Of a stretch of 64,000 bases of DNA, positions 6,563-52,801 are shown one piece after another. A program made the translations under genes and the position numbers. The notes under the pieces were generated by a model. The model did no database searches. It worked only from the letters and a program-made list of their open reading frames with translations, and was not told the DNA's origin. Position 1 is the stretch's first letter; each line of letters starts with the position of its first letter. The stretch comes from Methanocaldococcus bathoardescens. GTDB lineage: Archaea; AGJL01; Methanococci; Methanococcales; Methanocaldococcaceae. Location: NCBI RefSeq assembly GCF_000739065.1, contig NZ_CP009149.1:1187311-1251310 (forward strand), read 5' to 3'.

Positions 6563-6637
6563 GCCGGGGTAGTCTAGGGGCTAGGCAGCGGACTGCAGAT
6601 CCGCCTTACGTGGGTTCAAATCCCACCCCCGGCTCCA
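6563..6637 (+). tRNA. tRNA-Cys (GCA)
   Basis: 75 nt with encoded CCA. The acceptor stem GCCGGGG pairs with CCCCGGC, discriminator base U. The anticodon stem GCGGA/UCCGC encloses the loop CUGCAGA, giving anticodon GCA. The T arm GTGGG-TTCAAAT-CCCAC is perfect. No intron. The last 23 bases (6618-6640) recur in decayed form at 6771-6793 beyond a hairpin block. Confidence 0.97.
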
Positions 6638-6640
6638 TTT

Positions 6641-6793
6641 GAAACTTTAAGAAAGTTTCATCAAAGCTAACACCTCCTCGCTTACGCTCGGAGGTGTAAA
6701 TTAAGAGGCATTGCTTCCGTTAGGAAGCAATGCATCCGTTTTGATGAAACTTTTACTAAAAGTTTCGTTTAGATTTCACCTTCGGCTCCATTT
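6641..6793 (+). repeat. hairpin element with duplicated tRNA-Cys 3' end
   Basis: Directly after the tRNA come four hairpins. They are 6641-6659 (8-bp stem, loop AAG), 6671-6696 (CACCTCC/GGAGGTG around a CGAGC..GCGAG core, on the minus strand), 6705-6737 (GAGGCATTGCTTCC-GTTA-GGAAGCAATGCATCC) and 6746-6766 (GAAACTTTT-ACT-AAAAGTTTC). The outer segments are inverted copies of TTTTGATGAAAC..GTTTC, so the whole block is bounded by inverted repeats. The bases 6771-6793 match the tRNA 3' end 6618-6640 at 18 of 23 positions, including GGCTCCATTT. It looks like an element integrated at the tRNA 3' end; the distal tail has drifted mainly by C to T changes. Confidence 0.7.
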
Positions 6794-20053: not shown

Positions 20054-21061
20054 ATGAAAATCACACGAATGCATGGAGCTGGAGGAAAGGTAATGCAGGA
20101 GCTTATAAAAAATATCATTTTAAAAAATTTGGAGATAACATCAGTTAATGGAGGAATTGGTTTAGAGAGTTTAGATGACTCAGCAACTATCCCTATAGGA
20201 GATAAGGAGATTGTTTTTACTGTTGATGGACACACAGTTAAACCAATATTTTTCCCAGGTGGAGATATAGGTAGATTGGCAGTTAGTGGAACTGTAAATG
20301 ATTTAGCAGTTATGGGAGCTAAGCCATTAGCTCTATCTCTATCTTTAATAATTCCAGAAGGTTTTAACTTAGAGGATTTGGAAAAAATAGTTAAATCAAT
20401 AAACGAAACTTCTAAAGAGGCTGAGGTAGCTATAATAACAGGAGATACAAAGGTATCTGATGGTGTTGATGATATTATCATCTCAACTGCTGGAATAGGG
20501 ATTGTTGATAGAGGAAAAGCAATAAGGGATTGTAATGTTCAGGAGGGAGATGCAATAATAGTCTCTGGAAATATAGGAGAACATGGATTAGCTATTTTAT
20601 TATCGAGAGAGGGATTCGATTTTGAAACAAACATAAAATCTGATGTAGCTCCAATAAATAAATTGATTGAAAAAGTATTGAATGAAGGTATTCAAATAAA
20701 TGCCATGAAAGACCCTACAAGAGGAGGTTTGGCAGATGCATTAAATGAGATGGCTGAAAAGAGCAATGTAGGAATAACTATCTTTGAGGATAAAATCCCA
20801 ATAAGTGATGAAGTTCAGTCAATTTGTGATATCCTTGGCTTAGACCCTTTAACTATAGCAAATGAAGGTAAGGTTGTAATGGCAGTTAAAAAGGAAGACG
20901 CTGAAAGATGCTTAGAGATTTTGAGAGAACATCCATTAGGAAAGAATGCAGAGCTTATTGGCTATGCTACAAAAGAACATAAAGGAGTTGTGATGGAAAC
21001 AATTGTTGGTAGGAGAATTGTTGATATGCCGATTGGTGACCCAATACCGAGAGTGTGTTAA
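20054..21061 (+). CDS. hypE: hydrogenase maturation protein HypE
   Basis: 335 aa, PurM/AIR-synthase fold. HypE dehydrates a carbamoyl group on its C-terminal cysteine to thiocyanate, the source of the CN ligands of [NiFe]-hydrogenase. Visible are HGAGGKVMQELI, LDDSATIPIG, FPGGDIGRLAVSGTVNDLAVMGA, MKDPTRGGLADALNEMA and the required C-terminal PRVC with cysteine as last residue. The last 42 bases, which encode this critical tail, are duplicated at 21135-21176 beyond a hairpin element. Confidence 0.96.
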   Translation: MKITRMHGAGGKVMQELIKNIILKNLEITSVNGGIGLESLDDSATIPIGDKEIVFTVDGHTVKPIFFPGGDIGRLAVSGTVNDLAVMGAKPLALSLSLIIPEGFNLEDLEKIVKSINETSKEAEVAIITGDTKVSDGVDDIIISTAGIGIVDRGKAIRDCNVQEGDAIIVSGNIGEHGLAILLSREGFDFETNIKSDVAPINKLIEKVLNEGIQINAMKDPTRGGLADALNEMAEKSNVGITIFEDKIPISDEVQSICDILGLDPLTIANEGKVVMAVKKEDAERCLEILREHPLGKNAELIGYATKEHKGVVMETIVGRRIVDMPIGDPIPRVC

Positions 21062-21176
21062 ATAAGAGGCATCACCGAGCGAAGCGAGGTGATGCATCCT
21101 TGGGTATAGCAATAGGGCGGTAGCCCTATGCTACGTTGATATGCCGATTGGTGACCCTATACCAAGAGTGTGTTAA
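21062..21176 (+). repeat. hairpin element with duplicated hypE tail
   Basis: Hairpin 21066-21099 has the form GAGGCATCACC-GAGC-GAA-GCGA-GGTGATGCATCC; the GA/GA internal positions can form tandem sheared G.A pairs. Hairpin 21112-21129 is ATAGGGC-GGTA-GCCCTAT. The bases 21135-21176 then repeat 21020-21061 at 40 of 42 positions and encode the same 13 residues (V-D-M-P-I-G-D-P-I-P-R-V-C) and stop; both differences are silent third positions. Same hairpin order and orientation relative to the gene as at cbiX and the S2P protease. Confidence 0.8.
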
Positions 21177-27145: not shown

Positions 27146-27161
27146 TCATAATGTGAGAGCC

Positions 27162-28241
27162 ATGCTTCCAAACAAAAGAGCATTGGAAATTATTAGAAAG
27201 TATATGAAAATCTACAATGGGAGAAATGAAGAAGATATTAAAGAGAGATTAATTAAAGAGTTAAAGGAAGAAAATGTCTTAGTAGAAACTGAAGACGGAA
27301 CTTATACATTAAAAGCAGAAGATGAAGAGGAAATGATGCATTCAAAGGTTGGGGCTTTAAAGGAAGCGATTTATAAGTTTGCTAAACCATCAAAAATTGA
27401 AAATTTAAAAAACCCGAGAGTTTTAGATTTGTGTAGTGGTATGGGGTACAATGCTATAGCTGCTTTGCATTATAATAAAAATGCAAAGATAGATATGGTT
27501 GAGATTTGCGAAGAAGTTTTATTTTTAACTTTATTTTTAGATATTCCATATAAAGAGCATGAGATTATAAAAGATAAGGTTAGAGAGTATTTTTTAAACA
27601 AAATTGGCATTGAATATAAGTCAGATTATGATAATATCAATTTATATGTTGGAGATGCGAGAAAATTTATAATAAAGAGTGATAAAAAATACAATGTGGT
27701 TTTTCACGATGCATTTTCACCAAAAAGAGACCCCACTCTCTACACCTATGATTTTTTGAAAGAAATTTATAAAAGAATGGAAGATAATGGAGTTTTGATA
27801 TCTTACTCTTCAGCAATTCCTTTTAGAAGTGCTTTGGTTGATTGTGGTTTTGTAATTTCAGAAAATGAGAGTGTTGGGAGAAAAAGAGGGATAACCTTAG
27901 CTTACAAAAACCCAAATTTTAAACCAAATAGAATTAATGAGGTTGATGAGAGAGTTATAGCTTTATCAGTTATAGCTCTACCTTATAGGGATGAAACATT
28001 AAGCTTAACTAAAGATAAAATAATAGAGAATAGGGAAGAGAGAAGAAAAAAATTAAAAGAAAAATTAATTAAAATAGAAAAATACCTATCAACAAAACAG
28101 ATAAAAAAAGGAAATATTCCAGAAGAGGTTTTAAAAATTCAAAAAGAAGATTTGAACTCATCAGAGATAATTAAAAAGATGAGGTTGAAATTTTTCTCGA
28201 ATATAGGCGATAAAATATTTATTGAGATGTTCAAATTTTAA
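27162..28241 (+). CDS. MnmC-like SAM-dependent methyltransferase
   Basis: About 359 aa. The SAM site VLDLCSGMGYNAIAALHY is near residue 88, followed by IDMVEICEEVLFL, LYVGDARKFI and VVFHDAFSPKRDPTLYTYDFLKEI. The HDAFSPKRDPxLYT block and SAIPFRSALVDCGF match the MnmC methyltransferase domain (Methyltransf_30, COG4121). In bacteria this domain acts on 5-aminomethyl-2-thiouridine at the tRNA wobble base. The archaeal form has an extra helical C-terminal part of about 90 residues. An ATG at 27162 is used; a GTG at 27153 is possible. Confidence 0.82.
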   Translation: MLPNKRALEIIRKYMKIYNGRNEEDIKERLIKELKEENVLVETEDGTYTLKAEDEEEMMHSKVGALKEAIYKFAKPSKIENLKNPRVLDLCSGMGYNAIAALHYNKNAKIDMVEICEEVLFLTLFLDIPYKEHEIIKDKVREYFLNKIGIEYKSDYDNINLYVGDARKFIIKSDKKYNVVFHDAFSPKRDPTLYTYDFLKEIYKRMEDNGVLISYSSAIPFRSALVDCGFVISENESVGRKRGITLAYKNPNFKPNRINEVDERVIALSVIALPYRDETLSLTKDKIIENREERRKKLKEKLIKIEKYLSTKQIKKGNIPEEVLKIQKEDLNSSEIIKKMRLKFFSNIGDKIFIEMFKF

Positions 28242-28412
28242 TTTTGATGAAACAGAAAGCTCTGCTTTCTGGCTACAAATCCGTAGGATTTGTTCAATCG
28301 AAGCGTTAGCTTCGGGTTATAAAAACTCTTATGAGTTTTTATTTAACCAAAGCGTTAGCTTTGGGCAATGAAAACCGTTAGGTTTTCATCTAACTTTTTC
28401 TAAAAGTTTCAT
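28242..28412 (+). repeat. six-hairpin array inside one closing stem
   Basis: Starts one base after the methylase stop with TTTTGATGAAAC and ends with AAAAGTTTCAT, so ATGAAAC (28247-28253) can pair with GTTTCAT (28406-28412). Between them are six perfect hairpins: 28253-28271 (loop TCT), 28275-28293 (GTA), 28299-28314 (GTTA), 28319-28342 (TTAT), 28347-28364 (GTTA) and 28369-28388 (GTTA). Stems are 6-10 bp and all different, separated by 3-5 bases; a small seventh hairpin (AACTTTT-TCT-AAAAGTT) precedes the end. The outer arms match the flanks of the elements after tRNA-Cys and rpl39e. No clear copy of the gene tail is seen here. Confidence 0.72.
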
Positions 28413-28511
28413 GCAAACCTTTTTATACTATAAGCTCATAGTTGTTGAGGATGCTAAAATCTCTTTTTAGCATCTTTAAAAATTACTAAATTTTATTAGG
28501 AAGTGGAATAT

Positions 28512-49236: not shown

Positions 49237-49332
49237 GTTAAAATCAGACCGATTCGGTATGGAAACTAACTCCCACCTCCTTTTTTATTTTTTTAACCAC
49301 TGTTAAAATCAGACCTCTTGGAGGATGGAAAT
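49237..49332 (+). CRISPR. remnant CRISPR: two degenerate repeats and one spacer
   Basis: Repeat 1 is 49237-49266 and repeat 2 is 49302-49332, both starting GTTAAAATCAGACC and ending TGGAAA; the spacer between is 35 bases. The frame matches the M. jannaschii CRISPR repeat (GTTAAAATCAGACC, then TTTCGGAATGGAAAT) as I remember it. The central hairpins differ but both pair: ACCGA-T-TCGGT in the first, CCTC-TTG-GAGG in the second. No cas gene lies in the window. It could be a decayed array or a single promoter-driven crRNA-like unit. Confidence 0.65.
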
Positions 49333-50296: not shown

Positions 50297-50397
50297 TTAT
50301 CTTCCAAACGCTCTATACGCTATAGGGCTACTGCCCTATTGGTATACCGGGATGCACTACCTCGCTACGCTCGGCAGTGCCTCTTCTTTATTTGTTC
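50297..50397 (-). repeat. hairpin element with duplicated cbiX tail
   Basis: Read on the minus strand after the cbiX stop: hairpin GAGGCACTGCC-GAGC-GTA-GCGA-GGTAGTGCATCC (50350-50383, one G.T wobble), then ATAGGGC-AGTA-GCCCTAT (50322-50339), then an exact 20-base copy (50297-50316) of the end of cbiX (50398-50417), including the stop codon. Same hairpin order as at hypE and the S2P gene. Confidence 0.8.
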
Positions 50398-50844
50398 TTA
50401 TCTTCCAAACGCTCTATCGATAATTATATCTACAATCCTATCATCAGCACCTATTGGTTCTCTGTAAATAATTTCAACATCTTCTGGAATCTCTAACTTT
50501 TCATGTTCGTGATGATGGTGATGATGGTGATGGTGCCCATGGCCGTGTTCATGATGATGGTGTTCATGTTCTTCATCATCATTAATTAACCCTAACAACC
50601 TTGGAATATCTCTTGTTGTATGGATTCCATGAGCTAAGAAAACAGGAACAACAATAATTTTTTTAGCTCCCTGCTCAATTGCTTTTTTAACTGCTTGTGG
50701 AATTGTAGGTTCATTAAATTCCATTAAACCTATTTCAACAATTGGAAATATATTTTTTTCTTTAACCTTTTCGGCTAATTTTACTAAAAGCTCTTTACTA
50801 TATGGTAGTCTACTACCATGCCCTACCAATACCAATGCTTCCAT
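50398..50844 (-). CDS. cbiX: sirohydrochlorin cobaltochelatase CbiX (short form)
   Basis: 148 aa, the short archaeal CbiXS that inserts cobalt into sirohydrochlorin for cobamide synthesis (or acts as a Ni-sirohydrochlorin chelatase for F430). Visible are LVGHGSRLPYSKELL, VEIGLMEFNEPTIPQAV and VPVFLAHGIHTTRDIP with the catalytic histidines. Residues 96-118 form a histidine-rich insertion (DEEHEHHHHEHGHG, then nine H in a row), probably a metal store. GGTGAGGTT precedes the ATG. The last 20 bases are duplicated downstream. Confidence 0.93.
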   Translation of the reverse strand: MEALVLVGHGSRLPYSKELLVKLAEKVKEKNIFPIVEIGLMEFNEPTIPQAVKKAIEQGAKKIIVVPVFLAHGIHTTRDIPRLLGLINDDEEHEHHHHEHGHGHHHHHHHHHEHEKLEIPEDVEIIYREPIGADDRIVDIIIDRAFGR

Positions 50845-50951: not shown

Positions 50952-52043
50952 ATGGACACTTCTAAATTCATCTTAATTGTGGCAATAATAATTTGGCTAA
51001 TTTTATATGTTATTAGGGATTCAATAAACTTAAAAACCTATGGAGGAATTTTTGGAATTTTAAGAACTAAATTGGGGTTAAAAACAATTGAAAAATTAGG
51101 AAAGTATAAAATTTGGCAGAAAATAGGAATTATCTCTATACCAATATGTGTAGTACTTGGGTTTATTATGCTTTTCAATATAATAGCTATGAGTATAAAG
51201 CTGTTATCAGGAACTCTGCCAAAAGAAGCGGCAAAACCAGTAGTGTTTTTGTTTGGAGATGTAATTCCATGGATTCCAGGGATTATAGCTCTATTAATAG
51301 CAATTTCAGTACATGAATTAGCACATGGTATATTTGCAAGGTCTTTTGGAATTAAGGTTAAAAGCTCAGGAATTTTATTATTATTGGGTCTTCCATTGGG
51401 AGCTTTTGTTGAATTAGGAGATGAGTTTAAAAATGCAGAGAAAAAAATTAGAGGAGCTATTGCTTCAGCAGGACCATTAGCAAATTTATTGATTTTTTTA
51501 ATATCAATTCCACTACTTTCATTTAGCTACACATTACCAACAGAGTTAAAAATTATTGATGTTAAAGAGCCAGCATCTGAGTTTTTACAAAAAGGAGATG
51601 TTATTTATGAGATTAACGGTAAAAAAATAAATTCATTAGAAGATTTTAGAGAATTTGCCAAAACCATAGAACCAAATAAAGAGTATGAAATAAAAGTTTT
51701 GAGGGATAATAAAATACTGACGTATAAAATTATTAGCTCTGATGAAGGAAAGATTGGAGTTATGGTTTCACCAACAAAAAATACAGCACTATTCATAAAT
51801 ACAATATACTGGACTTATTGGTTTAACTTTTTATTGGCTTTATTTAACTTACTTCCAGCAATGCCTTTAGATGGCTTTCACGTATGGAATGCTTTCCCAG
51901 AATTATTAAAAGAGAGAAAAAATAGATTTATTGCAAAGATTGGACAGATATTAGAATTGTTTATAAATGAAAAAACTTTGGGCTCAATAACCCTTTTGGT
52001 TTGGTGGATTATTCTTGGAAGTATATTATATTCGATGTGGTAG
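50952..52043 (+). CDS. site-2 protease family (M50) metalloprotease with PDZ domain
   Basis: 363 aa. Several membrane segments; zinc motif SVHELAHGIFARSFG (HExxH) near residue 121, a second metal motif NLLPAMPLDGFH near residue 300. A PDZ domain lies between, with FLQKGDVIYEINGKKINSL. Site-2 proteases cut membrane-bound regulators within the membrane. AGGAG precedes the ATG. The last nine codons are duplicated at 52129-52157. Confidence 0.93.
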   Translation: MDTSKFILIVAIIIWLILYVIRDSINLKTYGGIFGILRTKLGLKTIEKLGKYKIWQKIGIISIPICVVLGFIMLFNIIAMSIKLLSGTLPKEAAKPVVFLFGDVIPWIPGIIALLIAISVHELAHGIFARSFGIKVKSSGILLLLGLPLGAFVELGDEFKNAEKKIRGAIASAGPLANLLIFLISIPLLSFSYTLPTELKIIDVKEPASEFLQKGDVIYEINGKKINSLEDFREFAKTIEPNKEYEIKVLRDNKILTYKIISSDEGKIGVMVSPTKNTALFINTIYWTYWFNFLLALFNLLPAMPLDGFHVWNAFPELLKERKNRFIAKIGQILELFINEKTLGSITLLVWWIILGSILYSMW

Positions 52044-52157
52044 GATTTAATTTCTCTTTATTTATGAGGCATTGCCGAGCGTTAGCGAGGCAATGCATCC
52101 TATCCCAATAGGGCGAAGCCCTATGGTTCGGGAAGTATTTTATATTCAATGTGGTGA
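52044..52157 (+). repeat. hairpin element with duplicated S2P tail
   Basis: Hairpin GAGGCATTGCC-GAGC-GTTA-GCGA-GGCAATGCATCC (52065-52099) is followed by ATAGGGC-GAA-GCCCTAT (52106-52122). Then 52129-52157 repeats the end of the protease gene (52017-52043) with a 2-base TA insertion; the substitutions ATA to ATT, TCG to TCA and stop TAG to TGA are all silent. The copy ends in GGTGA, which is the ribosome site of marC. Confidence 0.78.
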
Positions 52158-52162
52158 AATAT

Positions 52163-52801
52163 ATGGATATAATCAACTTTTATCTTTATGGATTTGTTTC
52201 CCTTTTTATTACAATAGACCCAATTGGCTTAATTCCAATAGTGCATTCTTTAACATATCCTTATCCAAAAGAGCAAAGAATTAGAATTATTAAAAAGGCA
52301 ATTATCTCATCAACTACAGTTTTGTTGCTATTTGCTTTATTTGGAAATTATATTTTTGGTTATTTTGGGATTACAATAGATGCTTTTAGAGTGGCTGGAG
52401 GGATTTTGCTATTTAAAATAGCTTGGGATATGCTTCATGCAGAAATTCCAAAAACAAAGCATAAACCAGATGAAAGATTAGATATTGAAGATATTGACAG
52501 TATAGTTTATGTTCCATTGTCTATTCCTTTAATCTCCGGCCCTGGAGCTATAACAACAACTATGATTTTAATTAGCAAAGCCCAAAGTATTTTAGATAAA
52601 GGGGTTGTTGTTTTATCTATACTATCAGCTATGTTAGTTTCTGGAATCATTTTATCATTAACTGACTTTATAATTAGAAGAGTTAATATATATGGAATTA
52701 ACGCCTTTGTAAGGATTATGGGATTGTTATTGGTGGCAATTTCAGTTCAAATTATATTTATTGGGATAGTTGGGCTATATAATAGCATTAGTGTTCAATA
52801 A
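52163..52801 (+). CDS. marC: MarC-family membrane protein
   Basis: About 213 aa, six membrane segments. It has FITIDPIGLIPIVHSLT (the family IDPIGxxP block) near residue 18, FRVAGGILLFKIAWDML and VPLSIPLISGPGAITTTM. MarC/SNARE-like proteins were once tied to antibiotic resistance; their substrate is unknown. ATG at 52163 follows GGTGAAATAT, which comes from the duplicated tail of the upstream gene. Confidence 0.9.
   Translation: MDIINFYLYGFVSLFITIDPIGLIPIVHSLTYPYPKEQRIRIIKKAIISSTTVLLLFALFGNYIFGYFGITIDAFRVAGGILLFKIAWDMLHAEIPKTKHKPDERLDIEDIDSIVYVPLSIPLISGPGAITTTMILISKAQSILDKGVVVLSILSAMLVSGIILSLTDFIIRRVNIYGINAFVRIMGLLLVAISVQIIFIGIVGLYNSISVQ

Follow-up and report, generated by a model that had tools for sequence, protein, structure and literature searches.

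The hairpins of one family in this archaeal genome form the left half of a short DNA element with two hairpins, and this element often lies between two copies of the same gene terminus. We consider it probable that the element is palindromic mobile DNA that inserts at gene termini, such that the host gene stays complete while an extra copy of its end remains behind. The window referred to below is the whole stretch of 64,000 nucleotides that was analysed, which belongs to a genome of 1,607,556 bp in one contig (G000); G001, G003, G004, G005, G006 and G009 are other genomes of the genus Methanocaldococcus.

The hairpin family and the architecture of the element

The hairpin family is real. All five hairpins of the original prediction were present, four with a tandem G.A core (6671-6696 and 50350-50383 on the minus strand, 21066-21099 and 52065-52099 on the plus strand) and one, 6705-6737, without it. 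The core, CCGAGC-N2..8-GCGAGG, matched 4 times in the 64-kb window compared to 0 matches in 100 shuffles, and 26 times in the whole genome compared to 0 for the reversed pattern. Furthermore, it was found in 13 of 14 Methanocaldococcus genomes at 2 to 27 copies per genome, the highest number being that of G003 (1,664,970 bp; 27 cores), which we infer to be M. jannaschii, and two genomes of a second genus of the same order carried 8 and 28 cores.

Two features had been missed by the original prediction: a second hairpin on the right, AATAGGGC..GCCCTAT (23 in the genome) or GATGAAAC..GTTTC, and the duplicated gene ends that flank the pair. The left end of the element is TAAGAGGCA or TAATTTACACC. 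When units recurring at different places were compared, the left-end junctions lay at CTAAGAGGC or CTAATTTACACC, and the right junctions mostly lay directly after CCCTATGG/GC or AAAAGKTTC/G. Terminal inverted repeats of the MITE type were not found, the left ends being TAAGAGGC/TAATTTACACC and the right ends CCCTATGG/AAAAGKTTC; each end of the element pairs within its own hairpin and not with the opposite end. Inserts of 70-300 bp held no reading frame and had no room for an endonuclease gene. The element is thus probably a non-coding, palindromic and mobile stretch of about 70-300 bp, built as a chain of two or more hairpins. One composite of more than 200 nt occurred twice, 867 bp apart and in equal orientation (L004 and L005, at G000:C1:145548 and 146415), which we read as a recent copy or local conversion. 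In one insertion shared by G000 (L001) and G006 (L059) the gene-side flank was identical and the tip was inverted (CCGAGCGAAGCGAGG in one, its reverse complement in the other).

The elements often lie between two copies of a gene terminus

Three of the four elements in the window sit between two copies of a gene terminus, and the fourth, at a tRNA-Cys gene, sits between two diverged tRNA 3' ends:

21020-21061, plus strand: gene-attached copy, the last 42 nt of the AIRS-type gene 20054-21061 (Pfam AIRS/AIRS_C), 95% identical to 21135-21176
21062-21134, plus strand: element 1, hairpin A (21066-21099) and hairpin C (about 21106-21134), from sequence and fold (z -5.2)
21135-21176, plus strand: detached copy of the AIRS-type gene end, from direct-repeat comparison
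50398-50417, minus strand: gene-attached copy, the end of the CbiX-type gene 50398-50844 (Pfam CbiX), 20/20 identical to 50297-50316
50317-50397, minus strand: element 2, hairpin A (50350-50383) and hairpin C (50322-50339 plus flanks), from sequence and fold
50297-50316, minus strand: detached copy of the CbiX-type gene end, from direct-repeat comparison
52017-52041, plus strand: gene-attached copy, the end of the peptidase M50 gene 50952-52043 (Pfam M50), 92% identical to 52131-52155
52063-52130, plus strand: element 3, hairpin A (52065-52099) and hairpin C (about 52105-52123), from fold
52131-52155, plus strand: detached copy of the M50 gene end, now in the upstream region of a MarC-family gene (52151-52801)
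6614-6640, plus strand: gene-attached 3' end of tRNA-Cys (tRNA gene 6563-6637), 78% identical to 6767-6793
6641-6766, plus strand: element 4, a composite, from sequence and fold
6767-6793, plus strand: detached copy of the tRNA-Cys 3' end, from comparison with 6614-6640

Element 4 begins with an inverted unit, consisting of a small stem (6641-6669) and a core hairpin on the minus strand (6669-6700), and continues with the core-less hairpin A (6704-6737) and a hairpin B (about 6739-6766). Taken alone, the duplication of the tRNA-Cys 3' end (L019) was not above shuffles in a local-alignment test. An unbiased scan of the window for direct repeats 60-330 bp apart returned only 5 pairs in 64 kb, 3 of which flank these elements. 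The site of element 1 was empty in G006, G001, G005 and G009; element 3 was also present in G006, and its site was empty in G003, G004 and G005.

Across the genus, duplications flanked 59 of 111 cores, at 57 distinct places, and in related species the gene was present without the element and without a second copy at many sites. About half of the 111 cores had no detectable duplication; around nine such loci of our own genome, searched to 1.4 kb, there were only copies of other elements. The duplicated termini included 3' ends of protein genes, 5' ends with the start codon, tRNA 3' ends from the T loop onward, and CRISPR repeats. Most duplications measured 20-76 nt, and this wide range rules out the short target duplication of fixed length that is typical of a MITE. 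The homology between the two copies often ended at the stop codon or in the start region. In 39 of 49 automatic ORF calls the intact gene lay on one constant side of the hairpin; after inspection this polarity stood at 43 to 4, six of the opposite calls proving to be four neighbouring genes and two CRISPR arrays, and one of the 4 remaining opposite cases was a copy with the tip alone inverted. The second genus showed an equal arrangement (L231 and L246), once over 90 nt at 97% identity. Fresh duplications were seen at the CbiX gene of G003 (33 nt, identical), in L060 (38-45 nt) and at the two loci of the other genus. The freshest duplications show identity over 33-45 nt, and over 79 of 90 nt in the other genus, so the duplication seems to be made by the insertion itself.

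The two copies often look derived from different species

We analyzed the differences between the two copies by codon position (1/2/3). Copy-to-copy differences numbered 37/28/129. Polarised with relatives that have the empty site, changes on the gene-attached branch numbered 10/5/51 and those on the detached branch 18/18/43, a third-position share of 0.54 with a site-bootstrap interval of 0.40-0.68; a separate count for the detached copy gave 20/18/49. The detached copy serves no gene now, and its third-position excess would therefore mean that a considerable share of its divergence dates from a time when it was still a coding sequence.

In many cases the two copies resemble sequences of different species; at one site, for example, the gene-attached end was of the G003/G001 type and the detached end of the G006 type. 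Over all, relatives matched either copy equally (82 vs 86 discordant positions), and at 32 sites the assignment of the foreign copy was split 16 to 14 with 2 ties, varying from site to site. A rule by which the detached copy is native and the gene copy always foreign fit the first sites of G000 and failed over the 32 sites.

Insertions, or insertion ends, shared between species, few as they are (three cases), carried short identical tracts. One insertion shared by G000 and G006 had 0 mismatches in the 138 nt beside the element and then about 10%, a second shared site had 0 mismatches in 69 nt beside the element, and in G003/G001 there were 0 mismatches in 47 nt beside the element and then about 15-20%. 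Because identity was confined to the 47-138 nt beside the shared insertions, gene end and element appear to move between species as a unit; a short piece of the gene would so have passed together with the element, the far junction staying at the right end of the element.

A mechanism for gene-terminus insertion and its alternatives

In the mechanism that we propose, insertion at a gene terminus would leave the last ~20-90 nt of the target on both sides. The insertion would then be passed from one species to another through recombination that, on one side only, converts a short piece of the gene, and as a consequence the gene-attached end and the displaced end would come from different lineages. 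Diverged copies may persist because they no longer recombine with each other to excise the element, and the hairpins would function at the level of DNA, serving a putative enzyme as substrate for breakage or joining. More tentatively, and with clearly less confidence than in the mechanism as a whole, we suggest that a hairpin element free of a nuclease and of any coding sequence might spread between archaeal species in a homing-like way, its hairpin DNA directing one-sided joining by a host enzyme. If so, a synonymous foreign gene end would be swapped in and the native one displaced, rendering insertions near gene ends harmless.

Several observations count against the proposed mechanism: no autonomous partner or enzyme for the element was found, about half of the cores lack a detectable duplication, the length of the duplications varies widely, unlike in ordinary transposition, the copy that is foreign differs from site to site, the fixed polarity is not accounted for by a simple staggered cut, and the cases of shared tracts number only three.

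A possible, though rather doubtful, alternative is one-sided homologous recombination in a single step, in which hairpin-ended DNA of a relative recombines within the gene, while non-homologous joining attaches its hairpin end ~50 nt short of the end of the resident gene. It amounts to a more specific version of the inter-species step of our mechanism, and it explains the pairing of foreign and native ends, the end points at gene boundaries, the use of both 5' and 3' ends and the variable overlap. However, the fresh identical duplications require a donor in the same genome, and the element has a fixed orientation relative to the junction, which is not expected of an element already present in the donor.

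It is unlikely that plain transposition alone, with a target duplication that is long and variable, drift of the detached copy and no exchange between species, accounts for the arrangement. Fresh identical duplications of 33-45 nt are in its favor, and part of the changes in the detached copy (20/18/49) look neutral; however, in many cases the homology runs no further than the stop codon or start region, identical tracts between species occur only beside the element, the polarity is fixed, and changes in the detached copy are enriched at third positions, an excess that already weakens plain transposition.

Relation to known mobile elements

The closest architecture known to us is that of the gene-end hybrids of fungal mitochondria (Allomyces, Glomus), which are made by mobile endonuclease ORFs and consist of a foreign, protein-synonymous gene end, an insert and the displaced native end (PMC3630166). 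Whereas the fungal insert encodes a homing endonuclease (PMC3630166), the archaeal insert is a non-coding hairpin chain of 70-300 bp, and unlike the fungal hybrids it is found at tens of genes, including 5' ends and tRNA genes, in an archaeal host. A gene-specific nuclease that causes homing in trans would yield this equal architecture (PMC3630166) and the tracts that resemble co-conversion, and a foreign gene end with a displaced native end and one-sided co-conversion, as in a homing element, was indeed found, with three shared-tract cases. Such homing is nevertheless improbable, given tens of unrelated target genes, inserts without a reading frame and the failure to find a nuclease.

Some resemblance to other systems was also apparent. 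Integrative elements, such as tRNA islands and e14 in icd, restore the 3' end of their target gene. As with these, a diverged copy here restores the gene end and the old end is displaced, and the archaeal tRNA copies begin in the T loop; in contrast, there is no integrase and no cargo, and the targets are tens of different genes, also at their 5' ends. Among mitochondrial hairpin elements, the GC clusters of yeast, the double-hairpin elements of Allomyces and the sponge RHE are likewise short single or double hairpins that are thought to be mobile and are mostly intergenic, whereas gene-end duplications do not feature in the sections of PMC2800124 that treat them, and for Allomyces the absence of flanking duplications is stressed there (PMC2800124).

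In the same genus, palindromic MJRE repeats of Methanocaldococcus jannaschii were reportedly described by Suyama, Lathe and Bork in 2005 (FEBS Lett 579:5281). The passages on archaeal repeats in PMC2229807 cite a 2005 publication on palindromic repeats of M. jannaschii, state that MJRE-type repeats can be fused into protein genes, and, unlike the present analysis, mention neither gene-end duplication nor ends from different species. Compared by description, the hairpin family is probably identical with these published MJRE1-3 repeats: both are palindromic and dispersed, and our cores occur in 13 of 14 genomes of the genus, including the 27 of G003. Our literature search, largely outside subscription journals, returned no publication that describes duplicated gene ends at these repeats.

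Many small palindromic repeats have been described from microbes and organelles, and how most of them move is still open. The insertions described here document their own history: the hairpin lies between two gene ends whose reading frame is known and whose origins usually differ, and from these the age, donor and side of joining can be read for tens of events. On the proposed mechanism, hyperthermophile species would exchange gene ends in pieces of about 50-140 bases, an element could enter a gene without breaking it, and the result would be an archaeal counterpart of the fungal mitochondrial gene-end hybrids without their nuclease.

Covariation and the modular tip of the hairpin

Paired changes in the outer stem, as originally claimed, were borne out: there were 66 two-sided cells compared to 19.3 expected, and 0 of 500 shuffles reached as high a count, in a control that ignores the relatedness of the copies. 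Among 33 distinct hairpins 99.4% of stem cells paired, 7 of 11 pairs showed two-sided change, and the signal was lost when the partner was slid by 1-3 columns; a second count on 96 unique hairpins was in agreement. Three outer stem positions alternated between 2 or 3 different Watson-Crick pairs, the GAGGCA subfamily included. Covariation thus persisted in the genus-wide alignment, where its loss had been named as what would refute the prediction. As single strands, the hairpins of the element also fold well (z -2.8 to -8.9).

The constancy of CC-GA-GC...GC-GA-GG, in contrast, held only for copies selected by the core itself. Two subfamilies are distinguished by their flanks, GAGGCA...TGCATCC and TTTACACC...GGTGTTAG. 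Among hairpins anchored on the first pair of flanks (n=17), 11 had the exact core, 2 kept the G.A pairs with altered inner pairs (one compensated from G-C to A-T, one G-U) and 4 had other, unrelated tips without the core. An invariant core is ruled out by these copies, and its constancy is partly a selection effect; with 11 of 17 exact cores and four unrelated tips, the hairpin tip is a module. Most loops were of the GNA or GNNA type, which confers stability on DNA and RNA hairpins alike.

Selection on a folded RNA or on single-stranded DNA had been proposed as the cause of the paired changes. The branch of single-stranded DNA and mobile elements is favoured by the empty sites, the composite at two places, the duplicated gene ends and the inverted tip, and selection on folded RNA is not needed, since self-templated correction and palindrome inversion yield equal paired changes. 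That the hairpins are selected as a small RNA or as an mRNA end structure, with insertions secondary, is accordingly very improbable: the strong covariation, the compensated inner pair that preserves the G.A pairs and the position after stop codons would fit, but a scan of Rfam matched the hairpin to no known family, hairpins also occur at 5' ends and beside tRNA genes, the tip is inverted in one shared insertion, and core-less versions exist.

The example given at the time, a transposase substrate, found no support in its usual form, as IS200/REP-type transposases were absent from this genome and, across the genus, from 12 of 14 genomes. A REP/IS200-type or reverse-transcribed element is the least probable reading and is largely refuted by the absence of its enzymes: paired hairpins dispersed between genes do resemble REP doublets and REPIN/BIME elements, but these depend on a Y1-type transposase, reverse transcriptase (PF00078) was found in 0 of 14 genomes with positive controls, and to our knowledge REP-type insertion leaves no target duplication, unlike here.

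Further observations

The duplications at tRNA genes in L160, L175, L194 and L216 all start at GTTCGAAT of the T loop, and in L050, L183 and L191 three related genes, probably DNA methyltransferases, are joined at one common codon; the shared start point and the shared codon hint at some target preference.

In G004, elements with an ATT loop lie at the ends of several CRISPR arrays with equal flanks (L045, L057, L068, L214 and L217), as though the copying of an array end had carried the element along. A possible remnant of an array lies at 49237-49332 of the window, where two isolated and diverged CRISPR repeats (Rfam CRISPR-DR13 and DR39) are separated by about 70 nt.

At 28241-28417 of the window, four to five small hairpins are nested within a GATGAAAC..GTTTC hairpin. 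This chain begins right at the stop codon of the ORF 27153-28241, where no gene-end duplication was found, and it looks like growth by hairpins inserting into the loops of hairpins.
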